Shown piece after piece: positions 1 through 32,534 of a DNA stretch of 33,698 nt. The position numbers were made by a program, and so were the translations under genes. This stretch comes from Lachnospiraceae bacterium. GTDB lineage: Bacteria > Bacillota > Clostridia > Lachnospirales > Lachnospiraceae. Location of the stretch: assembly GCA_017469935.1 (NCBI GenBank), contig JAFUFL010000107.1, forward strand, positions 1 through 33,698, in the 5' to 3' direction. The notes beneath the pieces are model-generated. The model saw only the letters and a list, made by a program, of their open reading frames with translations. It searched no databases and was not told the origin of the DNA. Position 1 is the stretch's first letter, and every line of letters starts with the position of its first letter.

Positions 1-1
1 C

Positions 2-304
2 ACACACAGGCTTCTGGTGCAGGGGCACCGCATTGACAATGTGGATGGCGGCGCCATGGTTGTGGCCGATGCGATTCAGATCCGACCGGTTTTCATTGCA
101 CCGTTTTTGGCCATTCCGATCCTGCTCTTGCTTCTCATTTACGTGCTGATCAGTACGAGTGCAAAAAAGCGCAAAGAGAGGGACTACAAAGCGGAATATA
201 TGGAGGAGAAAGGGATTGAAGAGCCGGAGCTGTCAGAATTATCGATGGAGGACCGGGATATGATCACGGAATCGATCAGATCATTTATGGACAAGAGAAA
301 GTAG
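2..304 (+). CDS. Class C sortase, C-terminal part (5' end outside window)
   Basis: The reading frame is open from the left edge, so this is the tail of a longer protein and the GTG at 17 is not its real start. It begins THRLLVQGHRID, matching the strand of class C (pilin-polymerising) sortases that carries the catalytic arginine in an NTHRLLVxGHR context. A membrane segment follows (about residues 32-53 of the visible part), then a charged cytoplasmic tail of about 45 residues ending SFMDKRK. A C-terminal membrane anchor is usual for class C sortases. The catalytic His and Cys would lie upstream and cannot be checked. The next gene encodes a protein with an IPQTG sorting signal, a plausible substrate. 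The identification rests on the short arginine motif plus context. Confidence 0.82.
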   Translation, partial: THRLLVQGHRIDNVDGGAMVVADAIQIRPVFIAPFLAIPILLLLLIYVLISTSAKKRKERDYKAEYMEEKGIEEPELSELSMEDRDMITESIRSFMDKRK

Positions 305-356
305 ATTTGCAGAAGGGGACATCTTTTAGAGCTCATCTTGCGGAAAGGGGCATTTT

Positions 357-1124
357 ATGAAGCTCATCAGGAAAACAGGTTTGAATAAAGCAGTAATGAG
401 TGCGGCAACATGTTTAACGCTGATCGCGGCTTTGCTGGTACCGGTCGTGCTGCCGCTGCCGCAGGCGGCGATCTCGGCGCACGCAGCTCAGAACGATGAA
501 ATGCCGGATCTGGACAGGACCGGGTCGATCAGTATCACGTTTCAATATTTTGACGAATCTAGCGGGAAGAAGCTTCCTGTGTCGGGCGGCAATTCGGTGG
601 GCCTCTACAAGGTAGCGGACGCGGTCGTCGACAACGGCTATAAATTTGTCGTCGATGAACGGTTTGCGGCGGCAGGAGAGATCCCTGCGACGGACGAGGA
701 ACTGGACAGCGCAAATCTTGAACTGGCTGAGAAAATGGCGGAGATCGCCTCGAGCGGCGCCATTGATTTCGATGCGGCGGCGCAGGAGATGGACGCGGAA
801 GGCAAGGTCAGCTTCGAAGGCCTCTCGGTAGGACTCTATCTTGTGATGCAGGACGCACAGGGAAGCGGCGACAACAAGTATGTGATCTCTCCGTTTCTGA
901 TCTCTATTCCTTACCGCAATCCGGACGGGACACTCACGTATGATGTAACTGCGGAGTCGAAGCCGATCGGAATCGGGAAGATCGAGCCTCCGCCGAAGCC
1001 GGACAAGCCCGACAAGCCGTCGCGCATTCCGCAGACCGGCCAGCTGTGGTGGCCCGTGATGGCACTGGGTATCGCAGGCGCGCTGTTCGTGCTGGCAGGC
1101 GTGGCCGTCAAAGTCAGAAAGTAG
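357..1124 (+). CDS. Sortase-anchored pilin-like surface protein (IPQTG)
   Basis: A 255-residue secreted wall protein. Residues 1-43 form a signal peptide (charged MKLIRK, a long hydrophobic core, an AHA-A type cleavage site). The mature part opens with PDLDRTGSISI and contains GLYKVAD and GLYLVMQD segments, the pattern of pilin-like beta-sandwich domains in clostridial sortase substrates. A proline/lysine linker (PPPKPDKPDKP) would span the wall. The sorting signal is complete: IPQTG at about 224-228, a hydrophobic segment at about 231-251, and a KVRK tail. The start follows a GGAAAGGGG ribosome binding site. It lies 52 bp after the sortase, consistent with an enzyme-substrate pair. It is paralogous to the protein at 2247-2951. 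Whether it is a pilus backbone, a minor pilin or a single anchored protein cannot be told. Confidence 0.85.
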   Translation: MKLIRKTGLNKAVMSAATCLTLIAALLVPVVLPLPQAAISAHAAQNDEMPDLDRTGSISITFQYFDESSGKKLPVSGGNSVGLYKVADAVVDNGYKFVVDERFAAAGEIPATDEELDSANLELAEKMAEIASSGAIDFDAAAQEMDAEGKVSFEGLSVGLYLVMQDAQGSGDNKYVISPFLISIPYRNPDGTLTYDVTAESKPIGIGKIEPPPKPDKPDKPSRIPQTGQLWWPVMALGIAGALFVLAGVAVKVRK

Positions 1125-1191
1125 GCAGCCCGCACGCGGCGCGGCGGCTCGCTCCGCGAGCCATGAATTAAATCACTAAACGTAAATCAGG

Positions 1192-1230
1192 GAAGACAGG
1201 GCGCGGGCCCTGTCTTCTTTTTGCTTTTTG
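1192..1230 (+). terminator. Intrinsic terminator of the sortase/pilin operon
   Basis: A perfect 10-bp stem (GAAGACAGGG with CCCTGTCTTC) and a 6-nt loop is followed by a T-rich run at 1218-1229. A second short hairpin (1146-1162, GGCTCGC/GCGAGCC) lies just upstream without a T tract. The terminator closes the plus-strand unit before the convergent DUF3800 gene. Confidence 0.88.
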
Positions 1231-1303
1231 TTAGTTGATTGAGACTGACTTGACCGGTGGGCATAAACAGTTTGCATTAGGGACTGACAATTAACCAATT
1301 CAT

Positions 1304-1981
1304 TTACAGCCACATCTTTTTTGATATAGGTTTGAGATAATTCTTTTTCAAATCGCGAAGGTTTCCGAAGAACTCCATTTCAGAGGCGGATACCGTACTT
1401 GACTCGACTTTTAGTCGAATAAGTTCCAAAGTGCAGAGAAGATCTGAGGCTTGGAAAAGACGATACTCAGAAGGTATAACACGTTTAAACTCGACGCGAG
1501 GAAGCAAAGAGTTAAACACGGACGCTAATATCTTATTAACTTCCGCCTGACCATTATCGTAGTATATTTTGACCAGGTCATAAGAAAGCAATTCCTGATA
1601 ATGATCTGTTATAAAACGTGAAATCAATTTTGAAAGCTTCGATACCATTTCGATGGAATCGGAAATATGCTTTTTCTCAATTGAAAAGGTCATGCATTTC
1701 ACATCACAATGCTTAACAAAAGTCATCATGCTGTTAAAGATTCGTCGACGGGTGTTTACTCTAAGAAAGGAGTATTCATTTTCTCTCCGGATTATAGGAC
1801 CGGTATGAACACAGTGATTCGGAAATCCAATAGCGGATAGGTCTTGGTCAAGCTTGAGAATTGGAGACGACAGATCTGTAGTTTGATCGTGAAAGACCAT
1901 AGAAATTATATAATAAGGAGAATGAAAGTCATAATCACCAAAATCTCCGGACTCGTCGATAAAAATGCCAAGTTCTTTCAA
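1304..1981 (-). CDS. DUF3800 domain protein (TTG start)
   Basis: A 225-residue protein of the DUF3800 family. It shows the N-terminal acidic signature IDESGD (residues 8-13) and the C-terminal QASDLLCTLE segment (177-186), whose Asp is characteristic. The family's molecular function is not settled; the spaced acidic residues suggest an RNase H-like nuclease fold, which is inference. The frame is open further upstream to 2056, but the likely start is TTG at 1981-1979: a strong GGAGG lies 8 nt before it, and the DNA upstream is a structured leader ending in an intrinsic terminator. The gene is more AT-rich than its neighbours and sits in opposite orientation between two paralogous surface-protein genes, suggesting an inserted cassette. 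No partner gene is visible, so promoter, leader and gene look like a self-contained unit. Confidence 0.85.
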   Translation of the reverse strand: MKELGIFIDESGDFGDYDFHSPYYIISMVFHDQTTDLSSPILKLDQDLSAIGFPNHCVHTGPIIRRENEYSFLRVNTRRRIFNSMMTFVKHCDVKCMTFSIEKKHISDSIEMVSKLSKLISRFITDHYQELLSYDLVKIYYDNGQAEVNKILASVFNSLLPRVEFKRVIPSEYRLFQASDLLCTLELIRLKVESSTVSASEMEFFGNLRDLKKNYLKPISKKMWL

Positions 1982-1997
1982 GTAAAGTTCCTCCGGT

Positions 1998-2024
1998 AAA
2001 AAAATGGCGGGGAACATCCCCGCC
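1998..2024 (-). terminator. Intrinsic terminator inside the DUF3800 leader
   Basis: On the minus strand, GGCGGGGA/TCCCCGCC makes an 8-bp GC-rich stem with a TGT loop, followed by A and seven T residues. It lies between the promoter and the ribosome binding site, so full-length mRNA requires readthrough. This is the geometry of transcription attenuation or of a terminated small RNA. Confidence 0.85.
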
Positions 2025-2076
2025 CTCGATGGACCCGGGTCTTGCGACCAGCCCATTGGTGTCTAGCACCATTTGT
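1998..2076 (-). ncRNA. Structured leader RNA upstream of the DUF3800 gene
   Basis: Between the predicted transcription start (near 2076) and the GGAGG, the minus strand folds into three consecutive hairpins. P1 is TGGTG/CACCA (2057-2071). P2 is an outer ATGG/CCAT stem (2029-2056) with an internal loop and an inner GGTC/GACC stem closed by a GCAA (GNRA) tetraloop (2038-2049). P3 is the terminator at 2006-2024. Several RNA motifs associated with DUF3800 genes were reported in comparative-genomics work (the DUF3800 motif series). This leader fits that setting, but I cannot assign it to a numbered motif. A cis-acting attenuator or an RNA partner of the protein are both possible. Confidence 0.6.
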
Positions 2077-2082
2077 AATTAT

Positions 2083-2111
2083 ATTGTAGTAAATGACATA
2101 GTTCGTGTCAA
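2083..2111 (-). promoter_or_regulatory. Sigma-A promoter of the DUF3800 unit
   Basis: On the minus strand a perfect -35 box TTGACA (2111-2106), a 17-bp spacer and a -10 box TACAAT (2088-2083) predict transcription starting near 2076, just before the first leader hairpin. Confidence 0.8.
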
Positions 2112-2190
2112 GAGGTAAAGAAATATTACTTGACCTATACATCCTTGACGTATTCATCGGCCGGAACCATTCGGAAGCCCTCTTGCAAAC

Positions 2191-2219
2191 TTGTAAAGAA
2201 TCTCCCGAAATGCTATTGT
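2191..2219 (+). promoter_or_regulatory. Possible promoter of the second pilin-like gene
   Basis: TTGTAA (2191-2196), a 17-bp spacer and TATTGT (2214-2219) lie 27 bp before the chosen start. Both boxes are imperfect. A separate promoter is expected because the DUF3800 cassette interrupts the operon. Confidence 0.35.
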
Positions 2220-2246
2220 TATAAAAGATGTTTCAGGAGAATAACG

Positions 2247-2951
2247 ATGAACTCAATGCATCAATCATATAAAGCAATAAAAAAAATGCTCTGCACGTTT
2301 CTATTCTGCACGGTCTTGGTCAGCTCTGTTTTGCTCGGGTCATTATTGACCGGTGGAGCGACCGCGAAGGCGGCCGAGCCGAACGAGCCGACTGCCGACG
2401 AGCAGACCATTCCGGATCTTTCGCAGACCGGTTCGCTGACGGTCGCCTTCACAAATGAGGCCGGCGAGCCCGACAAGTTTGGCAACAAGGTGGGACTCTA
2501 CAAGGTGGCGAACCTGCAAGTCGAGGACGGCTTCAGCCTCGTCTACGACGAGCTGTTTGAGTCGGTCGGGGAGCCGCCGTGCAGGGATGCCCAGCTGGGC
2601 GCGGACCTCGCGCAGAAGCTCAACGAGACCGCGGAGATCAAGGGCATTTCCCTGGATGCGCCCTCCGAAGAGATCTGGTCGGACGGGACTGTCACATTTA
2701 AGGGCGTGGACGCCGGGCTCTACCTGGTGGTACAGACCTACAGGGTCTCGGACAGCGAGAAGGCCGTGATCCGGCCTTTTCTGGCGATGATTCCGGAGAG
2801 ACGGGCGGACGGGACACTGAATTATGATGTCAAAATATCGTCGGCCGGGGCCTCTGACCGAAAAGCCGGTTCCGAGAGCCAGAATAAGATGCTGTCAGAG
2901 ATCACGCCTGACTCGAAACTTCCCAATACGGGCGGATTCTTTTTTGACTGA
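2247..2951 (+). CDS. Pilin-like surface protein truncated after LPNTG
   Basis: A 234-residue secreted protein. The ATG at 2247 is preceded by AGGAGA at 6 nt and starts directly into a signal peptide (basic stretch, hydrophobic LCTFLFCTVLVSSVLLGSLL, Ala-rich cleavage region), so the open frame upstream to 2130 is not coding. The mature region begins IPDLSQTGSLTVAF and has GLYKVAN and GLYLVVQT segments, paralogous to the protein at 357-1124. The C-terminus reads KLPNTGGFFFD and stops. The hydrophobic span and basic tail needed to hold a sortase substrate in the membrane are absent, and neither alternative frame downstream encodes one. It may be a decayed gene, a protein released to the medium, or a protein anchored some other way. 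An HAD phosphatase gene follows 41 bp later. Confidence 0.8.
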   Translation: MNSMHQSYKAIKKMLCTFLFCTVLVSSVLLGSLLTGGATAKAAEPNEPTADEQTIPDLSQTGSLTVAFTNEAGEPDKFGNKVGLYKVANLQVEDGFSLVYDELFESVGEPPCRDAQLGADLAQKLNETAEIKGISLDAPSEEIWSDGTVTFKGVDAGLYLVVQTYRVSDSEKAVIRPFLAMIPERRADGTLNYDVKISSAGASDRKAGSESQNKMLSEITPDSKLPNTGGFFFD

Positions 2952-2992
2952 AATCTGTTTGGACGGGGGCTTTTTGGCGGAGGAGTGGGATT

Positions 2993-3559
2993 ATGAAAGC
3001 GTTTGATTTTGATAATACTCTGTATCGCGGAGAGAGTTCGCTGGACTTCTCGCTCTACATGATCCGGACTAACAAGAAGATCCTGCTGTATCTGCCGGTG
3101 ATCCTGACAAATACGGTCAAGTACAAGCTGTGCCTTGTGGACCGGGAGGAGCTGGGCGATACGATCAACAAATACATGAAGATCCTCATCCGGGACAAGA
3201 GAGAGCTTCTGTCGCTGGTGGGGAAATTCTGGAAGACGCACGCCGACCGCCTGGATGCGGACATGCTGCGGCGCGTCGGGCCGGACGACCTGATCATTAC
3301 GGCCGGGCCGAGCTTTCTGCTGGACGGGATCCGGGACCGTCTGGGTACGCAAAATATCATCGCCTCAGAGGTTGACCTTGACAAGAGAGAGATTACGCAT
3401 TTTAATTTTAAAGAAAATAAGGTGCGCAGATTTCGCGAGCTGTATGGGGATGCGAGGATCAAGAGCTTCTATACGGATTCTTACAATGACCAGGCGGTGA
3501 TGGATATTTCTGATAAGGTCTTTCTGGTTAAAAAGGGAAAGGTAAAGCGGATCAAATAG
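2993..3559 (+). CDS. HAD-superfamily IB phosphatase
   Basis: A 188-residue protein with the nucleophile motif DFDNT (residues 5-9, DxDxT) and a late segment FYTDSYNDQAVMD supplying the acidic loop IV, as in phosphoserine-phosphatase-like HAD-IB enzymes. About 90 helical residues between these motifs form the C1 cap. It should act on a small phosphorylated metabolite; the substrate is not predictable. The ATG has GGAGGAG 7 nt upstream. Length is normal for a compact HAD-IB member. It follows the truncated pilin gene with no terminator between, so they may be cotranscribed. Confidence 0.8.
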   Translation: MKAFDFDNTLYRGESSLDFSLYMIRTNKKILLYLPVILTNTVKYKLCLVDREELGDTINKYMKILIRDKRELLSLVGKFWKTHADRLDADMLRRVGPDDLIITAGPSFLLDGIRDRLGTQNIIASEVDLDKREITHFNFKENKVRRFRELYGDARIKSFYTDSYNDQAVMDISDKVFLVKKGKVKRIK

Positions 3560-3621
3560 CGCGCAAGAAAACGGTACAAATTCAGGCAGGACAGGCCAAA
3601 ATCGTCAAAAAGGAGAATGCT

Positions 3622-3948
3622 ATGACAGAAAAAGAATTACTCAAACTGAAAAAATCAGAACTTCTGGAGATCATGCTGGCGCAGAGCAAGGAAATCGATT
3701 CCCTGCGCGAGCAGCTCGCCGAGGCCGAGGAGAAACTTGCATCGCGCAAGATCGCGATCAAGGAGTCCGGATCGATCGCGGAGGCTTCGCTGAAGCTGAC
3801 TAAGATATTTGAAGAGGCCCAGAAAGCCGCGGATCTCTATGTGGACAACGTGAAGAGAAGAGCGCGCATGGAAGAGAAGAAAGCCAGGCAGAAAGTGGAA
3901 GAGGGCGCCGGCAGTGCTGCTGCGGAAGCGGATACGGATGCTAATTAA
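3622..3948 (+). CDS. Small coiled-coil protein with disrupted tail
   Basis: A 108-residue highly charged protein, predicted coiled coil over about residues 1-55 (LLKLKKSELLEIMLAQSKE, then SLREQLAEAEEKL) with a second helical stretch at 60-95. I recognise it as a family frequent near surface and sortase genes of clostridia, sometimes mislabelled as a DNA repair protein; no enzymatic motif is present. DivIVA-like or membrane-associated scaffolding is possible but unproven. The ribosome binding site is AAGGAGA. The frame stops at TAA 3946-3948 inside an Ala/Asp/Asn-rich tail. In the +1 frame the same tail composition continues to 4003, so the present stop probably arose by a small indel. Confidence 0.7.
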   Translation: MTEKELLKLKKSELLEIMLAQSKEIDSLREQLAEAEEKLASRKIAIKESGSIAEASLKLTKIFEEAQKAADLYVDNVKRRARMEEKKARQKVEEGAGSAAAEADTDAN

Positions 3949-4003
3949 TGCCAATGCCGATTCCAATGCTAATACCAATTCCAATGCGGGGAATGAGGGA
4001 TAA
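3943..4003 (+). repeat. Low-complexity Asn/Ala tail continuing in another frame
   Basis: From 3947 the +1 frame reads NANADSNANTNSNAGNEG and ends at TAA 4001-4003. This matches the character of the upstream tail (EADTDAN). The underlying DNA is a degenerate AATGCC/AATACC/GATTCC tract, prone to slippage. Confidence 0.6.
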
Positions 4004-4024
4004 AGCGGGGCGGAGGCTCTCTAA

Positions 4025-4194
4025 AAAAGTCAATATGCTTTTTTTAAACCCTTCTTCGGTGGAATATCCACCGAAGAAGGGGACAGAAACAGACCTATAG
4101 ATCCCTTAGGCAGTCATAGTGCCTATTCTGAAACCCTTCTTCAGTGGAATATCCACCGAAGAAGGGTTTTTAAATAGGGGATACAGAAAATTTG
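4025..4194 (+). repeat. Double-hairpin dispersed repeat, copy A
   Basis: A ~170-bp element also present, in the same orientation, at 30346-30515. It holds two hairpins with arms CCCTTCTTCGGTGGA/TCCACCGAAGAAGGG. The first (4049-4081) is perfect with an ATA loop; the second (4134-4166) has one A/C mismatch. Shared flanking text includes AAAAGTCA before hairpin 1, GGACAGAAACAGACCTATAG between the hairpins and ACAGAAAATTTG at the end. The second hairpin is followed by TTTTT (4167-4171) and could terminate plus-strand transcription. Internally the element looks like two degenerate units, each AGTCATAGTGC-like text plus a hairpin plus ACAGAAA. Confidence 0.88.
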
Positions 4195-4274
4195 CGGGCA
4201 ATACAATTAGGTGCCGCCAGCGCAGGTGCTTTTCCACCGTGCTTTTTGGCACAAACTTATTAATTAATAAAAAT

Positions 4275-4332
4275 ATCTCCCAATCAACGCCTCGGAATTC
4301 ACACCGAGAGCTGAGATTGGGAGATGCTTTTT
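4275..4332 (+). terminator. Compound hairpin with T tract
   Basis: An 11-bp outer stem (ATCTCCCAATC with GATTGGGAGAT, 4275-4285 and 4315-4325) encloses an inner CTCGG/CCGAG stem (4291-4295 and 4304-4308). It is followed by GCTTTTT on the plus strand and, read the other way, by ATTTTTATT. It could act as a bidirectional terminator between the convergent coiled-coil and DUF6020-like genes, or be the remains of a small RNA. Confidence 0.6.
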
Positions 4333-4363
4333 ACATAGAGCATCCGAATGCCTAAAGCTATGG

Positions 4364-4388
4364 AAAAAGCTTCCTGATTCGACAGGAA
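4364..4388 (-). terminator. Weak terminator for the DUF6020-like gene
   Basis: Read on the minus strand, TTCCTG/CAGGAA (4388-4371, 6-nt loop) is followed by GCTTTTTCC. The stem is short. It lies about 190 bp past the stop codon of the minus-strand gene. I see no gene in the intervening 4389-4579 segment. Confidence 0.4.
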
Positions 4389-4579
4389 ATCTTCTTTTTC
4401 CGGAGTCCTTTGGAAGCTGTTTTCGCAGAAATGGCTGATTATGCCTAAAAAGTTCGCGTTGGACCATACGGGATGTCCGGTGGCCTCCATACCAGGCAGC
4501 TTGCTGCTGCACTGTATGGGGGCAGGTTGATCAAATTTCCCCCATATGATCCAACCAGGGCAGAACACCCGCCCGGGTA

Positions 4580-6565
4580 TCACTTCCTCCGCGCCCCAAT
4601 CCCCATGACCAGCGGCAGCGTGTAGAACTGTGGCAGTCCGTAGCGCGCCATCGCGTAGGGACTCACCCAGAGGACGAGGACGCAGACCGCGATCGGGAGC
4701 AGGCAGCCGAGGGATTTCAGGCGGCGGCCCTTGAAGTCCGGGAGCAGGAGCACCCGCAGCAGGGCGGCCAGCGGCAGCCACCAGGTGTAGAGCACGCACT
4801 GGAAGAGGAGCCCGACGCCCGGCAGGGCGGTCAGCCATTTGTAGACTGTCTGGACTGCGTCGCGGAAGGGGGCGAGCTTCGGGGGGTTTGGTATTTTGAC
4901 GTATTGAGTTGTCGGAAATTCGTAGTAGACCCGTATAGTTTCCGTGGGCGTGAAGAAGCCGCCGGCCGTGCCGAACAGGGCGTTCAGGCCTGAGAGCGGG
5001 TAGCGGGCGAAAAGCTGCAGCCAGAGGCGCTTGTAGGCGCTGAGCTGGTCGGCGGTGGCCTCGTAGTTGAAGAGTTTTTTGACCTCGTCGTAGTTGTAGC
5101 TGCTGTAGGATTCTTCTACTTTGGACAGGTCGATGACCGCGCCGATGGCCTGCACCTCCTGCGGCGACAGCTCGTCCTTGTGGTCGAGGTAGGTGCGCGC
5201 CGTCATCTGCATCGTGAAGCCGATGGACTCCTGCTTGCCGCCCGCGAAGATGTTGCACATGGGGAAGATCACGTGGGGCAGCAGCACCAGGACCAGCAGC
5301 GCCGGCAGGATCCAGCTCGCCGCCCACTCGGCCCATTTGCGGCGGACCGTCGGCGCCAGGATCAGCACCAGATTGCAGATCAGGACAAAATAGACCCCCG
5401 TCTTCTTCGTCAGCGCCAGCAGGATTGCCAAAATAGTGAGCGAAACCATTCGCCGCCCGCTTGCGCCTTCAAGCATGATTACCGCGTAGAGCAGGTAGTA
5501 GGCGATGAAGAGCATGCTGTAGAGGGAGTCTTTGAGCATGCCGATCGTGTACAGGCCGATAAAGGGCGCAAGGCCCAGAAACAGGAAACCTGCTTTCCTG
5601 TAGGCGTAGGGAACGCCGAATTTCTCCATGCGGCACAGCATCAGCGACATAAAGAGCGCCGTTATGGCCGCCTGGAGCGCGCAGTAGGCAAAGGCTCCGC
5701 GGACGGGGCCGCCCAGAAGGCCGCCCACCGTCTCCGTAAAGAACGTAAAGATCAGCGTATCCACTACCGGATGATGGTCATTCAGAAAGCAGCTGATCTT
5801 TGGCTCGCCCTCGTTCCAGTTGATCTCGATGGGCATGGTTCCGGTGGTGAAGTCTTTGATCTGGTTGGTGGTATCCATGCTGGCCACGCCGGGGTAGAAC
5901 GCCAGCAGGTAGGGCAGGAACAGGCACAGGAGCAGGATCCATGTCAGGATCACGCTGCGGGGGGACCAGGAGAAGAGAAGATGGAGGCGGGAGGCTGATG
6001 CTTGGCTGGGCATCTCAGGGATATCATTTTCTGGGGGAGTAACCAATGCCGCGGAGTCGTTGGCCGCGCCGAGTGCCTCTGCTTCAGGACACTCCGCAAG
6101 AACCGCCTTCCGATCGAACCGATCCAGCAGCTTCCAGCCGATCACAAAAAGCACAAGATAGACCAGAACCTGAAGTCCGGTGGTCACATATTCGGCAGTC
6201 GTCGAGAAGCCGAACTGCTTGGTCCGCCTGACATGTTCGACTAATACAGTAAAGAAAGCAAGTGCCAGAGCAAAGGCAATGGCAAGGATGCTTTTAAAAA
6301 GGCCGAGTCCCGCAAAGGAGATGGGGGCCGGAGAGGCGATGGGTTTCTCGTCGGAGTTTGGGATGGGTTCTGCGGGGGCGTTTGTGGTACCAGCGGCGGA
6401 ATCGTCGGGTGCACTCGTAACGGAAGAAACATCAAGGTCAGTGGGGGCGTCTGGTGCAGAAGCTGCACCAATGTCAGTTGGTTCCGTCTTCGCGGAAGCT
6501 GAATCCGGCTGTTCTATAGCCGGCGCAGGAAGTTCGCTATTGACTTGTTCGTAAGGGTCGTTCAT
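4580..6565 (-). CDS. Multi-pass membrane protein, DUF6020-like
   Basis: A 661-residue polytopic membrane protein. Residues ~10-83 form a low-complexity Ala/Pro/Asp/Ser-rich cytoplasmic tail. About a dozen membrane segments follow, the first near 90-110. Between later segments lie YPGVASMDTTNQI (about 224-236) and NDHHPVVDTL (about 262-271), acidic and His-containing loop motifs recalling GT-C type glycosyltransferases; the family best matches DUF6020. A role in moving sugars at the outer membrane face is inferred only from topology and the adjacent glycan locus. The ATG at 6565 is chosen because AAAGG lies about 10 nt upstream; a TTG at 6607 would add 14 residues but has no clear ribosome binding site. 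It is transcribed alone, opposite to the polysaccharide locus. Confidence 0.72.
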   Translation of the reverse strand: MNDPYEQVNSELPAPAIEQPDSASAKTEPTDIGAASAPDAPTDLDVSSVTSAPDDSAAGTTNAPAEPIPNSDEKPIASPAPISFAGLGLFKSILAIAFALALAFFTVLVEHVRRTKQFGFSTTAEYVTTGLQVLVYLVLFVIGWKLLDRFDRKAVLAECPEAEALGAANDSAALVTPPENDIPEMPSQASASRLHLLFSWSPRSVILTWILLLCLFLPYLLAFYPGVASMDTTNQIKDFTTGTMPIEINWNEGEPKISCFLNDHHPVVDTLIFTFFTETVGGLLGGPVRGAFAYCALQAAITALFMSLMLCRMEKFGVPYAYRKAGFLFLGLAPFIGLYTIGMLKDSLYSMLFIAYYLLYAVIMLEGASGRRMVSLTILAILLALTKKTGVYFVLICNLVLILAPTVRRKWAEWAASWILPALLVLVLLPHVIFPMCNIFAGGKQESIGFTMQMTARTYLDHKDELSPQEVQAIGAVIDLSKVEESYSSYNYDEVKKLFNYEATADQLSAYKRLWLQLFARYPLSGLNALFGTAGGFFTPTETIRVYYEFPTTQYVKIPNPPKLAPFRDAVQTVYKWLTALPGVGLLFQCVLYTWWLPLAALLRVLLLPDFKGRRLKSLGCLLPIAVCVLVLWVSPYAMARYGLPQFYTLPLVMGIGARRK

Positions 6566-26187: not shown

Positions 26188-26811
26188 ATGAAAAAACTTG
26201 TCATAGTGGGCAATGGAGGATTTGCGAAAGAAGTCGAATGGCTTGTTGAGAGAATCAATATGATTTCTCCGACATGGGATTTTATCGGCTTTATTGATAA
26301 GGACAGTAATAACCCAAGAGTGGTTGGTGACGATGAATTTATCACCAATTATAACCAGGAACTAAATGTGGCAATAGCCATAGGATCATCTTCAATAAGA
26401 GAAAAAATATATTCTGCATATAAAGAAAACGCTAATATTTGTTTTCCTAATCTCATTGATCCGAGTGTTTTACTTTCGGATAAAATATCATTTGGAGAAG
26501 GAAATATTGTTTGCGCAGGATCTATTTTAACAGTTGATATAGTAATTGGAAATTGTAACATAATTAATCTGGATTGTACCATTGGTCATGATGCTATTAT
26601 TAGAGATTTTGTAACAATCAACCCAAGTGTAAACGTTTCTGGGAATACGACCATCGAGTCCGGAGTGAATATAGGGACTGGTACGCAAATCATCCAAGGG
26701 TTAACCATAGGTAATAATAGTATCGTAGGCGCCGGTGCTGTAGTAAGTCGTGAATTGCCATCTAATTGCACAGCAGTCGGGATTCCGGCGAAGGTCATTA
26801 AGTATCATTAA
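26188..26811 (+). CDS. neuD: NeuD-family sugar acyltransferase, AT-rich copy
   Basis: A 207-residue protein: an N-terminal Rossmann-like domain (KKLVIVGNGGFAKEVEWLVE) binding nucleotide sugar, and a C-terminal left-handed beta-helix with hexapeptide repeats (for example IESGVNIGTGTQIIQG) binding acetyl-CoA. The likely catalytic His is in TIGHDAIIRDF; the EHDC context typical of PglD/LegH is absent, so it may acylate a different position or substrate. The gene is visibly AT-rich compared with legB and legC and pairs with the equally AT-rich neuB that follows. A strong GGAGGTGG site precedes the ATG. Confidence 0.85.
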   Translation: MKKLVIVGNGGFAKEVEWLVERINMISPTWDFIGFIDKDSNNPRVVGDDEFITNYNQELNVAIAIGSSSIREKIYSAYKENANICFPNLIDPSVLLSDKISFGEGNIVCAGSILTVDIVIGNCNIINLDCTIGHDAIIRDFVTINPSVNVSGNTTIESGVNIGTGTQIIQGLTIGNNSIVGAGAVVSRELPSNCTAVGIPAKVIKYH

Positions 26812-26855
26812 GATTAAAATGATTATGGACCTAAGGGGAATGGGAGGAGAGTTAA

Positions 26856-27854
26856 ATGGATGGAAAAGTTCTTATAATTGCAGAAGCCGGTGTTAACCAC
26901 AACGGTAGTCTTGAAATGGCTAAGAAATTGGTCGATGCTGCTAAAGCAAGTGGTGCTGATATTGTAAAATTTCAGACAGCAAAACTGGATTCTCTGGTTT
27001 CAAAATCAGCCCATATGGCAGAGTATCAAAAGAAGAATACAGGTGTGGAAGAAAGCCAAAAGGACATGTTATCAAAACTGCTGCTAAGCTTTGAAGACTT
27101 TGCCGATTTGGCTGGATATTGCAGGAGTGTTGGGATTAAATTTTTATCAACACCTTTTGACATAGAAAGCATACAGTTTCTTAACGATATGCAGGACCTT
27201 TGGAAAATTCCTTCCGGCGAAATAACTAATTATCCTTATCTTGTTGAAATCGGAAAGACAAAGAAGAAAGTGATTTTATCGACCGGCATGGCAGAAATGG
27301 ATGAAATACAGGCTGCGATTAACGTATTGAACGAGTACGGGACCGAAGACATAACAATCCTTCATTGTACTACAGAATATCCGGCTCCTATTAAAGATGT
27401 TAACCTTAATGTGATGCAGACTATAAGAGAAACTTTTGGCTATCCCGTCGGTTACTCTGATCATACAGAGGGAATTGAAGTTGACCTTGCGGCCGTGGCT
27501 CTTGGTGCATCTGTGATAGAAAAGCATTTTACGCTGGACCGTAATTTACCAGGACCGGATCATAAGGCAAGCCTTGAGCCGGACGAACTAAAGGCCATGG
27601 TCAATGGAATTCGTAAAATAGAACTTGCTCTTGGATCAAGAGAAAAGAAACCTTCTGAAATGGAATTAAAGAATAGACTGGTGGCAAGGAAGAGCATTGT
27701 TGCCAAGAAAGCTATTAAGGCAGGAGAAGCGTTTTCTGCCGATAATATCACCACAAAGCGTCCGGGCTCAGGGATTAGCCCGATGAGGTGGAATGAGTTA
27801 ATAGGAATGAATGCTATAAGAGACTTTGAAGAAGACGAATTAATTGAAATATAA
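26856..27854 (+). CDS. neuB: Nonulosonic acid synthase (NeuB/LegI), AT-rich copy
   Basis: A 332-residue synthase condensing PEP with a 6-carbon amino sugar to a 9-carbon nonulosonic acid. It has IIAEAGVNHNGS at the start, VKFQTAKLDSLV, FLSTPFD, WKIPSGEITNYP, the metal/PEP site YSDHTEGIEV and IEKHFTLDRN. A C-terminal SAF (antifreeze-like) domain, about residues 275-332, includes KRPGSGISPMRW. Length is normal. It is roughly 60% identical by eye to the second copy at 31495, yet much more AT-rich in DNA. Whether it makes Neu5Ac, legionaminic acid or a variant cannot be settled from motifs. GGGAGGAGA precedes the ATG. Confidence 0.93.
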   Translation: MDGKVLIIAEAGVNHNGSLEMAKKLVDAAKASGADIVKFQTAKLDSLVSKSAHMAEYQKKNTGVEESQKDMLSKLLLSFEDFADLAGYCRSVGIKFLSTPFDIESIQFLNDMQDLWKIPSGEITNYPYLVEIGKTKKKVILSTGMAEMDEIQAAINVLNEYGTEDITILHCTTEYPAPIKDVNLNVMQTIRETFGYPVGYSDHTEGIEVDLAAVALGASVIEKHFTLDRNLPGPDHKASLEPDELKAMVNGIRKIELALGSREKKPSEMELKNRLVARKSIVAKKAIKAGEAFSADNITTKRPGSGISPMRWNELIGMNAIRDFEEDELIEI

Positions 27855-27888
27855 GAAAGATTGCAGTTATAACGAAAGAAGGCACAAC

Positions 27889-29130
27889 ATGGGCAAATTT
27901 ATTCCGCTTTCGGTCCCCAATTTCGAGGGCAACGAGAGAAAATACGTAGATGACGCGATTGACCAGGGCTGGGTCTCCACCGGAGGCGCCTATATTACAG
28001 AGCTTGAGAAGAAACTCGCTGAGTTCCTGCAGACGCAGAACGTCGCGGCCTGCCAGAGCGGCACTTCCGCCCTTCACCTGAGCCTCGTGGAGGCCGGCGT
28101 GAAGCCGGGCGACACGGTCCTTGTCCCGCCGCTCACTTTCATCGCGGCCGTCAATCCCGTCAAGTACCAGTTCGCGACTCCGGTCTTTATCGACTGTGAC
28201 GACAGTTTCTGTCTGGATCCGGTCAAGCTTCGGAGATTCTGTGAGGAGGAGTGCAGCTTTGAGCCTGCGGGGAGCCCCGCGGGCGGATCTGAGGAGAGCC
28301 CTGCGGGCGGATCTGAGGAGCCTGCCGGCGGCTTGCTCCGCCACAACGGTTCGGTCGTCAAGGCGATCGTAGTTGTTCATGTTTTTGGCAACATGGCGGA
28401 CATGGAAGCCATCATGGACATCGCGGCGCAGTACAACCTCAAGGTGATCGAGGACGCCACCGAAGCACTCGGGACAAAATATACCACCGGCCGCTACGCA
28501 GGCAAATACGCCGGGACGATCGGGGATTTTGGGGCTTACAGCTTTAACGGCAACAAGATCATCACGACGGGCGGCGGCGGCGCCGTGACGGCGCGCGACC
28601 CCAAGGTGGTCGACCACATCCGTTTCCTGTCCACCCAGGCCAAAACCGACCCCCACTACTACATCCACGACGAAGTCGGCTACAACTATCGCATGACCAA
28701 TCTTCAGGCGGCGCTGGGCGTAGCGCAGATGGAGGAACTGCCCGAGTTCATCCGGAGAAAGCAGAGGAACTTTGAGCAGTACAGGGAGGAGTTTCAATCT
28801 TTTGACCTCGCTAAGTTGGTGCCTTTCAGAGAGGGCATTGAGTCCAACAAGTGGTTTTACTCGCTGGACATCGACAGGAGCCGGGTGACGGCCTCCATGC
28901 GGGAGATCATTACTTCGCTCCAGGAGGAGGGCATCCAGACCAGGGCCATCTGGGGGCTCATCAACGAGCAGAGGCCCTACGAGAACGAAGAGACGTACAA
29001 GCTTGAGAAGGCACCTTACTATGCCGAGCGGATACTGAACATCCCTTCCAGCACGCAGATCACGCCGGAAGAGATCACGTATGTGGCGGACAAGGTGAAG
29101 CAGCTGCTTAGGTCACTGGCAAATGGATGA
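27889..29130 (+). CDS. legC: LegC-like aminotransferase with repeat insertion
   Basis: A 413-residue DegT/StrS-family enzyme of the LegC subgroup (amination of the 4-keto sugar made by LegB). The N-terminus IPLSVPNFEGNERKYVDDAI and GWVSTGGAYITELE are typical. PLP lysine is K223 in YSFNGNKIITTGGGG; IEDATEALGTKY carries cofactor-binding Asp189. Residues about 122-154 are an extra Gly/Ser/Pro/Glu segment encoded by a 24-bp tandem repeat, inserted in a surface loop before the strand VVKAIVVVHVFGN. The ATG at 27889 is chosen for AAGAAGG 6 nt upstream; an open frame 15 codons longer would overlap the neuB stop. Its 3' end overlaps the next gene by 8 bp. Base composition returns to GC-rich here. Confidence 0.88.
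   Translation: MGKFIPLSVPNFEGNERKYVDDAIDQGWVSTGGAYITELEKKLAEFLQTQNVAACQSGTSALHLSLVEAGVKPGDTVLVPPLTFIAAVNPVKYQFATPVFIDCDDSFCLDPVKLRRFCEEECSFEPAGSPAGGSEESPAGGSEEPAGGLLRHNGSVVKAIVVVHVFGNMADMEAIMDIAAQYNLKVIEDATEALGTKYTTGRYAGKYAGTIGDFGAYSFNGNKIITTGGGGAVTARDPKVVDHIRFLSTQAKTDPHYYIHDEVGYNYRMTNLQAALGVAQMEELPEFIRRKQRNFEQYREEFQSFDLAKLVPFREGIESNKWFYSLDIDRSRVTASMREIITSLQEEGIQTRAIWGLINEQRPYENEETYKLEKAPYYAERILNIPSSTQITPEEITYVADKVKQLLRSLANG
28273..28332 (+). repeat. 24-bp in-frame repeat inside the LegC-like gene
   Basis: Two 24-bp units (28273-28296 and 28297-28320, differing by one base) encode SPAGGSEE twice. A partial third encodes PAGG. The flanking EPAG may be a further remnant. Confidence 0.85.
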
Positions 29131-30166
29131 ACTGAGAAAATTTATCGGCAGGAGCAACCTGACCGTATCCGAAGCCATGCAAAAAATTGACGAGGGCGCG
29201 GCGGGAATCCTCTTCCTGACTGACGAAAATGATGTCCTGGTCGGCTGCATCACGGACGGAGATATCCGCAGGTTCCTTTTGGCCGGCGGGTCCATGCGGG
29301 ACCCCGCGCTGGGCGCCTGCAACCGCCATCCCAAGGTCGCCGGGTCCCTGGAGGAGGCCAAGTGCCTCTACCACAGCAAAAACTACATAGTCATCCCCGT
29401 CATCGACGAGACCGGCGCCATCACGGCGCTCTACGGCGGGGGCAAAGGCGAGATCAGGAACCGCAAGAAACTGGGCGTTCCCGTGGTCATCAACGCGGGC
29501 GGCAAAGGCACCCGGCTGGACCCCTTCACGCGCGTCCTCCCCAAGCCGCTGATTCCCGTGGGCGACCAGCCCATCGTGGAGCTCATTATGCAGGAGTACC
29601 AGTCCTACGGCTGCGATGACTTCCACATCATCGTCAATTACAAGAAGAACCTCATGAAGGCCTACTTCACCGAGAATGAGACCAACTACAACATCACCTG
29701 GTACGACGAGGACAAGCCCCTGGGCACCGGCGGCGGCCTCAGCCTCCTGCGCGGTAAGTTTGACGGCACGTTCTTTTTTGCCAACTGTGATGCGCTGCTG
29801 ACGGCCAATTACGAGAGCATGCTCCGGTTCCACAAGGAAAACGGCAACGCCATCACCATGGTCTGCGCCTACAAGAACCTCAACATCCCATACGGCGTCG
29901 TCAAAATAGGCCGCGCCGGCGTCATCGACAGCATGGAGGAGAAACCCCTCCTCTCATTCCTTGTCAACACCGGCATCTACATCGTCGAGCCTGAGGTCAT
30001 CGACGACATCGAGGACGGCGTTCCGATCGGCTTCCCTGACATCGTGGAGCGCGAGCGCCGCCTTGGCAAAAAAGTGGCAGCCTACCCGGTCAGCGAAAAC
30101 GACTGGATGGATATGGGGCAGCTTCCTGAGCTGGAGAAGATGAGGATTAAGTTGTACGGAGAGTGA
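29123..30166 (+). CDS. CBS-domain nucleotidyltransferase (PtmE-like)
   Basis: A 347-residue protein in two parts. Residues ~1-115 are a CBS pair (GILFLTDENDVLVGCITDGD is the first). The rest is a sugar-phosphate nucleotidyltransferase with the signature NAGGKGTRLDPFTRVLPKPL, a YDEDKPLGTGGGL loop and FANCDALL. This architecture matches PtmE, the glucosamine-1-phosphate guanylyltransferase of the Campylobacter legionaminic acid pathway. It would supply a GDP-sugar for LegB/LegC; nucleotide specificity is inferred from context. The start overlaps the LegC stop by 8 bp with only a weak ribosome binding site, implying coupled translation. CBS domains may sense adenylates. Confidence 0.86.
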   Translation: MDELRKFIGRSNLTVSEAMQKIDEGAAGILFLTDENDVLVGCITDGDIRRFLLAGGSMRDPALGACNRHPKVAGSLEEAKCLYHSKNYIVIPVIDETGAITALYGGGKGEIRNRKKLGVPVVINAGGKGTRLDPFTRVLPKPLIPVGDQPIVELIMQEYQSYGCDDFHIIVNYKKNLMKAYFTENETNYNITWYDEDKPLGTGGGLSLLRGKFDGTFFFANCDALLTANYESMLRFHKENGNAITMVCAYKNLNIPYGVVKIGRAGVIDSMEEKPLLSFLVNTGIYIVEPEVIDDIEDGVPIGFPDIVERERRLGKKVAAYPVSENDWMDMGQLPELEKMRIKLYGE

Positions 30167-30345
30167 TGACGTGCGGCGGCGTGGAGATCCGTGACGTGCG
30201 GATGCGCGGAGAACCAGAGAGTGCAATATGCAGCAGCGAAGCGGATAAACGAAATTTCGCGCACTAATCGTGTTCTAATATTCATGATTTGCAACCCTCT
30301 GCTGGACCAAAATTTGAAAATGATCGATATTTTGACAAGTGCCGG

Positions 30346-30515
30346 AAAAGTCATAGTGCTCTTTCAAAACCCTTCTTCGGTGGAATATCCACTGAAGAAG
30401 GGGACAGAAACAGACCTATAGACCCCGAAAGCAGTCATGGTACCTTTCCCGAAACCCTTCTTCAGTGGAATATCCACCGAAGAAGGGAAAAAAAAGAGGG
30501 GGTACAGAAAATTTG
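30346..30515 (+). repeat. Double-hairpin dispersed repeat, copy B
   Basis: The second copy of the element at 4025-4194, same orientation. Hairpin 1 is at 30370-30402 (one G-T pair on the plus strand), hairpin 2 at 30455-30487 (the same A/C mismatch as in copy A). The spacer GGACAGAAACAGACCTATAG is identical to copy A. Hairpin 2 is followed by eight A residues rather than T residues. The end shares ACAGAAAATTTG. No protein is encoded. Confidence 0.88.
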
Positions 30516-30563
30516 AGGCTCACGGGGCGCGGGGCGCCCGCCGAAGGTACACCTGCCGCCAAA

Positions 30564-30795
30564 TATGCATAAAATATTAATAATATGCATAAATTATTAG
30601 TTGAAGGTGCGGAATTCGGCAGCAGAGGGTCTGAATCGCGTTAATATTAATCTCGGAATTATGCATAATATGCAGTTTTTTATGCATAAACGGTATGCGT
30701 GAATGTACGCATAAATGAGACGCATAAACGGCATGCATAAATGAGACACATAGGCGGCATGCACAAATGAGACGCATAAATCATATGCATAAGCG
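30564..30795. repeat. ATGCATAA-rich repeat region upstream of the second neuD
   Basis: An AT-rich stretch with repeated TATGCATAA and GACGCATAAA motifs. From 30691 it becomes a tandem array: one 38-bp unit (30691-30728), two 26-bp units (30729-30754 and 30755-30780) of type CGGCATGCATAAATGAGACG plus CATAAA, and a partial fourth. Open frames across it have no recognisable coding character. Together with repeat copy B it fills the 660-bp gap 30167-30826, where I see no gene. Confidence 0.75.
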
Positions 30796-30826
30796 ATCCC
30801 CAATAAACGATACGGAGAATTCAGAA

Positions 30827-31462
30827 TTGAAAAGAAAGCTTTTGCTGATCGGCGGCGGCGGCCACTGCCGCTCCGTGCTCGACACGGCCATGCAACTGAA
30901 TAGGTACGACGAGATCGGAATCGTAGATTTTGCGGACAGTTCCTGCCTGGGCGTGCCGGTGGTCGGAAACGACGACGACATCCCGGACCTGATCCGGCAG
31001 GGCTGGAACGAAGCCTTCATCACAGTGGGGAGCGTCGGCAGCACAAAAGTCCGCAGGCGCCTCTACGAAATGGTCAAAAAATTGAACCTCACAGTTCCAT
31101 CCCTGATCGACCCGACTGCCGTCATTGCGAACGGTACAGAGATCGGCGAGGGTACTTTTGTGGGCAAGAGGGCCGTCGTCAATACCTGCGCGGCGATCGG
31201 AAATTGTGCCATCATCAATACGGGCGCGATTGTCGAACATGACTGCAGGATCGGCGACTTTTCGCATGTCAGTCCGGGCGCGGTGGTGTGCGGCCAGGTG
31301 ACGGTGGGAAATGATTCCCACGTGGGAGCCGGGACGGTCGTGCGGCAGCAGATTGTGATCGGGGACAATGTTTTGATCGGCGCGGGAAGCACGGTTGTCA
31401 AGGATATCCCGGCGGGGGCAAAAGCTTACGGAAATCCGTGCAAAGTGGTGGAATCCCTATAA
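30827..31462 (+). CDS. neuD: NeuD/PglD/LegH-like sugar acetyltransferase, GC-rich copy
   Basis: A 211-residue protein with an N-terminal nucleotide-sugar domain (KRKLLLIGGGGHCRSVLD) and a left-handed beta-helix. It keeps the full catalytic context INTGAIVEHDCRIGDFSHV (the His of EHDC acts as base in PglD-type N-acetyltransferases), making it the better LegH candidate. The TTG at 30827 is chosen: GGAG lies 9 nt upstream and the family's N-terminus starts exactly there. The in-frame ATG at 30767 lies within the 26-bp repeats and would add 20 residues of repeat-derived sequence. It is followed 32 bp later by the second neuB. Confidence 0.87.
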   Translation: MKRKLLLIGGGGHCRSVLDTAMQLNRYDEIGIVDFADSSCLGVPVVGNDDDIPDLIRQGWNEAFITVGSVGSTKVRRRLYEMVKKLNLTVPSLIDPTAVIANGTEIGEGTFVGKRAVVNTCAAIGNCAIINTGAIVEHDCRIGDFSHVSPGAVVCGQVTVGNDSHVGAGTVVRQQIVIGDNVLIGAGSTVVKDIPAGAKAYGNPCKVVESL

Positions 31463-31497
31463 AGTGATGAAATTCCTATAAAGGTGGTGAAAAAATG
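31442..31497 (+). repeat. 19-bp tandem triplicate before the second neuB
   Basis: Units AAAGTGGTGGAATCCCTAT (31442), AAAGTGATGAAATTCCTAT (31461) and AAAGGTGGTGAAAAAATG (31480) span the end of neuD, its stop codon (31460-31462) and the neuB ribosome binding site and start. The third unit supplies the AAAGGTGG binding site. Confidence 0.75.
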
Positions 31498-32487
31498 AGC
31501 GTATACATAATTGCAGAAGCCGGCGTCAACCACAACGGCGACATCAATCTGGCCTATCAACTGGTGGACGCCGCCAAAGCGGCGGGCGTCGACTGCATCA
31601 AATTTCAGACTTTCAAGTCGGAGAATCTGGTCTCGCACACGGCGCAGAAGGCGGACTACCAGAAAGCGGCGACCGGGGACAGCTCCCAGCAGGATATGCT
31701 GAAGCAGTTGGAGCTATCTTTTGACCAGTTTGTGAGGCTGAAAAAATACTGCGACGAGAAGGGCATTTGCTTTTTGTCGACGCCGTTTGACTTTGAGAGC
31801 ATAGAGTTTTTGGACTCCATCGACATGCCGTTCTGGAAGATTCCGTCGGGCGAGGTGACCAATTATCCCTATCTGGTCGCGCTGGCAAAAACCGGAAAGC
31901 CGGTCGTCATGTCCACGGGCATGTGCGAGATGCGGGAGATCGAGGACGCGATCAGAGTCCTGCGCGAGAACGGGACAAGCGAGATCAAGCTGCTTCACTG
32001 CAATACCGAGTATCCGACGCCGTATGAGGACGTCAATCTCAGGGCGATGAGGACGCTCGGGGATGCTTTTGGGGTGGAAGTCGGCTATTCGGACCACACG
32101 AAGGGCATCGAGGTGCCGATCGCGGCGGTTGCGATGGGGGCGACGATTATTGAGAAGCATTTTACTTTGGACCGCAATATGGAGGGGCCGGACCACAAGG
32201 CCAGCCTGGAGCCGCAGGAGCTGGCGCAGATGGTGGACAGCATTCGCCACATCGAGAAGGCGCTCGGCACCGGAGACAAGAAGCCGTCACCTTCCGAGAG
32301 GAAGAACATGGCCGTCGCCCGCAAGAGTATCGTGGCGGCGAAGAGGATTTTGGCAGGCGATGTTTTGACGGAAGAGAATATCACTGTGAAGCGGCCCGGC
32401 AGCGGGATCTGCCCGATGCGCTGGCAGGAGGTGCTGGGGACCAGGGCGGTCAGGGACTTTGAAGAGGATGAGCTGATCGAATTGTGA
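31495..32487 (+). CDS. neuB: Nonulosonic acid synthase (NeuB/LegI), GC-rich copy
   Basis: A 330-residue synthase with the same architecture as the protein at 26856: IIAEAGVNHNGD, IKFQTFKSENLV, FLSTPFDFES, WKIPSGEVTNYP, YSDHTKGIEV, IEKHFTLDRN and a C-terminal SAF domain with KRPGSGICPMRW, ending DFEEDELIEL. Codon use matches the GC-rich glycan locus, so this is probably the resident copy. Placement with NeuD (EHDC type) and NeuC makes a standard NeuD-NeuB-NeuC order; legionaminic acid synthase (LegI) is the most likely activity given LegB, LegC and the PtmE-like enzyme. Confidence 0.94.
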   Translation: MSVYIIAEAGVNHNGDINLAYQLVDAAKAAGVDCIKFQTFKSENLVSHTAQKADYQKAATGDSSQQDMLKQLELSFDQFVRLKKYCDEKGICFLSTPFDFESIEFLDSIDMPFWKIPSGEVTNYPYLVALAKTGKPVVMSTGMCEMREIEDAIRVLRENGTSEIKLLHCNTEYPTPYEDVNLRAMRTLGDAFGVEVGYSDHTKGIEVPIAAVAMGATIIEKHFTLDRNMEGPDHKASLEPQELAQMVDSIRHIEKALGTGDKKPSPSERKNMAVARKSIVAAKRILAGDVLTEENITVKRPGSGICPMRWQEVLGTRAVRDFEEDELIEL

Positions 32488-32534
32488 GATTCGGGGGATA
32501 GCGAATACAACTGGGACCTCCAAGGAGGAAAGGG

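Follow-up and report, generated by a model that had tools for sequence, protein, structure and literature searches.

A short structured RNA and a DUF3800 gene that lie in tandem in the window (the whole 33,698-nt stretch of Lachnospiraceae DNA analysed here) may together form a horizontally acquired RNA–protein module of the toxin-antitoxin or abortive-infection kind, with solitary copies of the RNA in phages as candidate decoys. Judging from sequence comparisons, we give this reading an even chance and favour it over one in which the RNA is a cofactor of the protein, which we in turn place ahead of a cis-regulatory leader. The linkage of gene to RNA, the RNAs that lack a gene and the solitary viral copies give the DUF3800-XI RNA family a testable function; Rfam's DUF3800 RNA series runs from I to XI, and we know of no role for several of the DUF3800-linked RNAs, RF02968, RF02969 and RF02975 among them.

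An RNA of a listed family precedes the DUF3800 gene

A sequence-only reading of this DNA had given the order of elements along the minus strand, and all of them are present: promoter, 5′ hairpin, core hairpin, terminator, GGAGG, TTG start and DUF3800 gene (Table 1). The promoter that it had called perfect falls slightly short, with TTGACA-17-TACAAT agreeing at 11 of 12 consensus positions; the location of the -10 hexamer would place the RNA 5′ end near 2076. Because promoter-like and terminator-like sites in positions 1-6000 are no more numerous than in shuffled sequence, both calls rest on position and conservation. TTG starts are used by 6 of the 24 intact genes in the window's bacterial family, the window's included, with start sites chosen by us.

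Table 1. Coordinates of the RNA–DUF3800 unit in the window
Feature	Position	Strand	Basis or remark
-35 hexamer TTGACA	2111-2106	minus	sequence
-10 hexamer TACAAT, 17-nt spacer	2088-2083	minus	sequence
5′ hairpin TGGTG-CTAGA-CACCA	2071-2057	minus	folding and sequence; outside Rfam model RF02975
Core hairpin UGGGCUGGUC-GCAA-GACC(CG)GGUCCA, GCAA loop	2055-2030	minus	
DUF3800-XI RNA (Rfam RF02975): core hairpin and most of terminator stem	2009..2055	minus	67 bits, E 6.2e-13
Intrinsic terminator GGCGGGGA-TGT-TCCCCGCC, 8 bp	2024-2006	minus	T7 at 2004-1998
Ribosome-binding site GGAGG	1994-1990	minus	
DUF3800 gene, 225 aa	1304..1981	minus	TTG start 1981-1979, stop 1304-1306; PF12686
Whole unit, 939 bp	1232..2170	.	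no counterpart at this site in congener G317

The RNA aligns over the full length of the Rfam covariance model RF02975 (DUF3800-XI), its 67 bits standing above the gathering cut-off of 37.8, and is the only such match in its genome. This rules out the unlisted class that had been considered and supports the suspected link to DUF3800 RNA motifs; the window RNA shares with the Rfam family its location upstream of a DUF3800 gene. The Rfam model spans 48 nt and has a single paired hairpin, to which our analysis adds pairing in the terminator, a frequent 5′ hairpin and the description of gene-less copies in virus records.

Compensatory changes, for which the sequence-only reading had looked to homologous leaders, are present there. 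An alignment that takes in 35 of the 61 family RNAs has 95.9% of its cells paired and two-sided change at 11 of 18 pairs (0/500 shuffles equal). The 79 RNAs of named genomes (76 distinct; from the best 80 of at least 335 relatives) give 96.6% and 10 of 18, again with 0/500 shuffles equal, in an alignment that was fitted to RF02975 and is so biased toward the model structure. The terminator stem also covaries in both alignments. This covariation is strong evidence for the fold, and folding energy on its own is weak evidence (z -1.96 for the window RNA, with 7 of 200 shuffles equally good).

A 5′ hairpin of at least five Watson-Crick pairs occurs in 57 of the 79 named loci (best 80 of at least 335 relatives) versus 12% of mononucleotide shuffles, and in the family in 18 of 24 loci with an intact gene, 8 of 13 with a partial gene and 8 of 20 with none. 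Its sequence differs between loci, and some loci lack it; it is nearly identical in related loci such as L012, L019, L023 and L099. Where the -10 hexamer adjoins the core, as in several loci (for example Treponema L102, L110 and L111; Fibrobacter L113), there is no space for it, and the RNA, with its start deduced from the -10, would shrink to a minimum of about 58-66 nt made up of core and terminator. By eye, the leaders of L040, L101, L108, L112 and L114 hold a second GC-rich hairpin after the first, giving two successive terminator-like stems. L108 also carries an extra copy of the RNA (3688-3754) on the opposite strand, just 3′ of its DUF3800 gene.

The gene keeps its RNA, and the RNA is often found without the gene

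At E 0.001 or better, RF02975 matches in 44 of 299 genomes of the window's bacterial family, 42 of them above the cut-off. Downstream of the 61 family RNAs, the DUF3800 gene is intact in 24, partial or broken in 13 (three of these, L007, L031 and L055, being weak short matches at E 0.1-0.2), absent in 20 and beyond assessment at contig ends in 4; with these 4 of 61 left out, 33 of 57 RNAs have no intact gene. Internal deletions that retain both ends of the DUF3800 gene behind the RNA are seen in L015, L034, L042 and, weakly, L007.

Seen from the gene side the picture is different: the same 299 genomes hold 27 full-length, stop-free DUF3800 genes, and with one at a contig end (L068) set aside, an RNA accompanies 26 of 26, in 24 by Rfam match and in 2 divergent cases (L085, L088) by eye. 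Among named genomes, represented by the best 80 of at least 335 relatives from a protein-only search, the RNA lies whole upstream in 79 of 80 loci, the remaining one being severed by a contig end, and each of these 79 leaders holds a single RF02975 match. The two sets share at least five loci (L100/L012, L103/L023, L106/L014, L131/L027, L137/L039), and their counts are not independent. A terminator stands between RNA and gene in all 24 intact family loci.

RNAs without a gene largely keep their structure: of the 20, 16 form 9 of 9 core pairs and 17 have a terminator. Two of them (L053, L057) have in common an A-U pair at a position that is G-C in all 35 rows of the family alignment and all 76 distinct named-locus rows, which hints at selection acting on the RNA alone. 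Gene lesions exceed RNA lesions in part because the gene is the larger target. By target size alone, in a rough calculation that ignores kinship, finding no lesion in a 75-nt RNA has P about 0.08 for 0/26 and 0.0005 for 0/79; for a 48-nt RNA, P is 0.2 and 0.008. Some gene-less RNAs are likely decaying, since strong promoter scores (at least 9) are rarer upstream of them, at 5 of 20 against 12 of 24 intact-gene RNAs (4 of 13 partial; 2.8% of shuffles); at lower thresholds the score does not separate real sites from shuffles, 81% of which pass the first.

Solitary RNA copies occur in virus records

A strict pattern for the core found 12 viral stretches and a broad one 19, and the reversed broad pattern had no viral match. 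A DUF3800 gene lies downstream in 3 of the 19 broad-pattern loci and is absent in 16. These 16, together with L242 and L243, make up 18 virus records in which RF02975 matches (E 0.01 or better) and a record-wide search gave no DUF3800 match; as the records are fragmentary (6 to 184 kb), the viruses may still carry a DUF3800 gene outside them. The Rfam cut-off is exceeded by 14 of the 18 RNAs. Several of the loci have common flanks, and we read them as about 13 distinct settings. Terminase or portal proteins near L210, L212, L234 and L240 point to phage origin; a terminase domain is found in 5 of the 18 records, in 3 above cut-off, and the others are classed as viral by their collection.

Many of these copies sit among tRNA genes. 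In 10 of 18 loci (L208, L215, L234, L236-L240, L242, L243) between 1 and 22 tRNA genes are nearby, with the RNA on the tRNA strand in all ten and the closest tRNA 8-22 nt away in L208, L237 and L239; the fetched stretch of the other 8 loci holds no tRNA gene. Only 3 of 19 bacterial loci with a gene-less RNA have adjacent tRNA genes, and the tRNA setting is therefore mainly viral. Pairing in the viral cores is kept by two-sided changes in 9 cells, a number that 0/500 shuffles equal; the number of two-sided-changed pairs (2; 202/500 shuffles) and of pair types (500/500) does not rise above shuffles.

Where a viral locus bears the gene, the RNA is usually there too, in 16 of 17 loci, with a weak match in L230 (E 3e-4) and only a piece of the gene in two; in L233 the RF02975 model finds no RNA. 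A blastn search of the RNA against phages gave no match, and the DUF3800 protein search gave one distant match each in plasmid and in phage records. A core of subtype 2 had 0 matches in viral contigs. A pattern with a longer loop found six viral stretches, of which L242 and L243 are cow-rumen-3-like and the other four resemble chance matches; L241, one of the longer-loop matches, has no RF02975 match.

Cow-rumen-3 (Rfam RF03083) is a longer RNA with a 5-nt apical loop, whose 3′ hairpin aligns to the DUF3800-XI core and whose weak matches are co-located with it. Near phage tRNAs in L243 (7943-8066) and L242 (3720-3832), both records without a DUF3800 match, it scores 72 and 58.5 bits with low E-values, below its cut-off of 86.7. 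The 299 family genomes gave 0 cow-rumen-3 matches in a search whose control likewise matched nowhere, so that absence is not demonstrated.

Other structured RNAs turned up in the same records. In L209, a 126-kb virus contig, a drum RNA (RF02958; 11384-11537) lies directly upstream of the solitary DUF3800-XI core and slightly overlaps it. L237 holds two DUF3800-XI-type RNAs (3258-3318 and 5486-5550) in one record, with 22 tRNA genes nearby, and the start of L243 is the 3′ end of a ROOL RNA, slightly below cut-off.

The DUF3800 protein has a predicted RNase H-like fold

The window protein matches PF12686 at 33.3 bits (E 9.3e-8; Pfam gathering 21 bits), and its AlphaFold2 model has a mean pLDDT of 93.5. 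An RNase H-like fold is predicted: the best PDB matches in Foldseek are RNase HII (E 1.4e-5, TM about 0.4, top-match rmsd about 9-11 A). Kinship to RNase HII would rest on a loose fold match, because a profile comparison of DUF3800 with RNase HII gave no alignment; membership of RNase HII by profile was rejected for the same reason. D9, E10, D13, D142 and D180 are invariant across 75 DUF3800 proteins, in an alignment that omits 6 of 80 named proteins with stops or at contig ends. PADLOC models gave no match to the window protein at E up to 1. The suggestion of a possible nuclease gene is supported by sequence, as a possibility. A TPR-DUF3800 protein is likewise predicted to have an RNase H fold, with catalytic rearrangement (PMC10910872).

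An RNase H fold is also found in some RNA-guided nucleases, and the RNA might be an obligate cofactor of the DUF3800 protein, as scaffold or guide, with phage copies poisoning the complex as Racr RNAs do. The gene was not found without the RNA in any assessable family or named locus (the latter being the best 80 of at least 335 relatives), which suits this reading, and solitary phage copies would serve as decoys for a cofactor as well as for an antitoxin. Foldseek matches to Cas005 and PIWI Argonaute are weak (E 0.02-0.07). Retention of the RNA without the gene is less expected of a cofactor. The transcript is almost wholly hairpins: no free variable segment was seen in the leaders, on which ground a guide RNA was rejected, and the 5′ hairpin, unlike a variable guide, is near-identical in the related loci noted above. 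We judge a cofactor unlikely, and still the first among the alternatives.

A probable default short RNA with readthrough into the gene

In thermodynamic folding the terminator stem dominates in 101 of 103 leaders (median probability 0.97), two falling outside the terminator criterion, and only 9% of leaders have its 5′ arm more than half paired at the point where the 3′ arm has yet to be transcribed. No conserved antiterminator or other structure that disrupts the terminator was found in the 101, and an antiterminator was rejected on these grounds. In the window, 24 nt separate the terminator stem from the start codon, ribosome-binding site included, so that a separate gene promoter past the terminator is not plausible. 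Since there is neither a conserved antiterminator nor room for a second promoter, the default product would be a small RNA of ~79 nt, with the gene product made by readthrough, one of the two options that the sequence-only reading had offered.

The other option, a riboswitch or attenuator, is disfavoured. A cis-regulatory leader of this kind, or one through which the DUF3800 protein would regulate itself by binding its own leader, does account for a terminator placed between promoter and gene and for the constant linkage of RNA and gene (best 80 of at least 335 relatives). It does not sit well with the lack of a conserved antiterminator in 101 leaders, and a leader acting in cis only does not predict that RNAs without a gene are common: behind 33 of 57 assessable family RNAs the gene is missing, partial or broken, and the 18 virus records have no DUF3800 match at all. 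We consider it improbable, more so than a cofactor.

A putative antitoxin-like module and its relation to known systems

In the antitoxin-like module that we favour, a single promoter would serve the ~79-nt structured RNA, which ends at the strong terminator, and the gene would be reached by readthrough, leaving the short RNA in large excess over DUF3800 protein. The RNA would bind the RNase H-fold protein and restrain its nuclease activity. Phage infection or stress would disturb the RNA:protein balance and release the nuclease, which would attack nucleic acids of the cell or the phage; a phage-borne core without the gene would act as decoy RNA and keep the nuclease silent. Toxicity, binding, neutralisation, an anti-phage role and decoy function are all what we infer from the comparisons given here.

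We favour this reading because the gene comes with the RNA in all assessable family loci and in 16 of 17 viral ones, the RNA often comes without the gene, and the RNA covaries; because gene-less RNAs largely retain core and terminator, RNase HII gives the best PDB matches to a confident protein model and acidic residues are invariant; because the unit has a low GC content, a patchy spread and a site that is empty in a congener (below), and 18 virus records hold the RNA with no DUF3800 match; and because AbiF/RCd22 has an equal layout and phage mimics of ToxI and of CRISPR repeats are known. Several results count against an antitoxin: the RNA is single-copy, unlike the tandem repeats of type III systems; the gene is the larger target; orphan RNAs are perhaps decaying, in their 5′ hairpins (8/20 versus 18/24) as in their promoters (5/20 versus 12/24); 8 of 18 solitary loci have no tRNA gene; L233 has no RNA; and the fold match is loose. 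Solitary copies need not be decoys, because phage tRNA regions house many other RNAs.

The closest layout is that of AbiF/RCd22 in Clostridioides difficile (RF03085). It has a SigA promoter, a short structured RNA, a terminator and readthrough, with an RNA that terminates early, lets transcription run on into the gene and neutralises the toxin (PMC12373285). Its RNA and protein families differ from those of the DUF3800-XI unit, and RCd22 has two motif copies where DUF3800-XI has one. The order promoter, RNA, terminator, gene is also common to type III toxin-antitoxin systems (ToxIN, CptIN, TenpIN). Their antitoxins are tandem repeats, whereas the DUF3800-XI RNA is single-copy and without repeats, and their toxins are ToxN, CptN and TenpN, outside which the DUF3800 protein falls by PADLOC, Pfam and its RNase HII-like fold; the ToxN fold differs from the predicted RNase H fold of DUF3800. 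RF02975 and the abiF motif reportedly both come from one 2017 catalogue. By analogy, the best reading is a unit that would work like type III toxin-antitoxin or AbiF and yet is not a type III member, because it has no tandem repeats and a different protein family.

Phages are known to carry mimics of antitoxin and CRISPR RNAs: a phage-borne mimic of ToxI antitoxin RNA (PMC3475682), and RNA anti-CRISPRs (Racr), phage-carried mimics of CRISPR repeats (PMC10651486). Racr RNAs resemble the solitary DUF3800-XI copies in that viral genomes hold a defence RNA on its own; they are CRISPR-repeat mimics put to experimental test (PMC10651486), whereas the DUF3800-XI copies are candidates known from sequence. 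A wider proposal is more tentative, and we lean against it: DUF3800 proteins with their RNA motifs would form a new kind of anti-phage system, in which an RNA antitoxin restrains a toxin of RNase H fold and to which phages respond with solitary mimics, often among tRNA genes, cow-rumen-3 being one. Our literature search found no link of DUF3800 RNAs to toxin-antitoxin systems or phage mimicry, which does not prove its absence from print. If the RNA and its phage copy do neutralise the protein, an orphan RNA family would be explained and RNA-antitoxin systems would gain a new toxin fold. The result would also bear on the DUF3800 proteins that neighbour Cas12a2 (V-A2) and type VI-F CRISPR loci (PMC10910872, PMC12669027).

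A low-GC insert at a site empty in a congener

In congener G317 the two flanking pilin-like genes are adjacent, with 14 nt where the window has 1232-2170; in congener G349, the window segments 1074-1125 and 2185-2250 have short matches that are 33 nt apart. RF02975 has no match in either genome. The insert has a GC content of 0.396 against 0.548 for window 2171-33698, and the RNA is present in 6 of 61 genomes of the genus. Across the bacterial family the unit is patchy, and going by record titles it is present in several phyla. A protein tree built by a quick method implies 6 switches of phylum label, against a minimum possible of 5; Spirochaetota takes 3, and well-supported branches force 2 of these. 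Tree, low-GC insert and empty site fit horizontal transfer and do not prove it; mis-binned contigs may play a part.

The RNA region might instead mark one end of a mobile element and give an RNase H-fold transposase its cis signal. The low-GC insert and its empty site would suit this, as would the loci whose internal gene deletions retain both gene ends. We nonetheless find it very improbable, given the single RNA copy in the window's genome, the covariation at RNA level and the retained terminator, and mobile-element ends were rejected because, by eye, no common sequence appeared past the stop codon in the loci displayed.

Defence-like neighbours are found among 118 flanking ORFs (22 of 140 omitted, after 9 of 80 named loci were skipped as near-copies); 88 control ORFs, from a set in which 5 of 20 stretches were omitted as close to a unit, likewise match Cas9, AbiE, Gabija and DRT models, and as the output names families and not the individual proteins matched, the rates are not comparable. 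The genes on either side of the insert in the window (357-1124 and 2247-2951) are paralogues, about 40% identical, which we take to be pilin-like surface proteins. Farther along, at 26188-33686, lies what is presumably a cluster of NeuB/NeuC-like sugar-acid and aminotransferase genes, probably for a surface polysaccharide.
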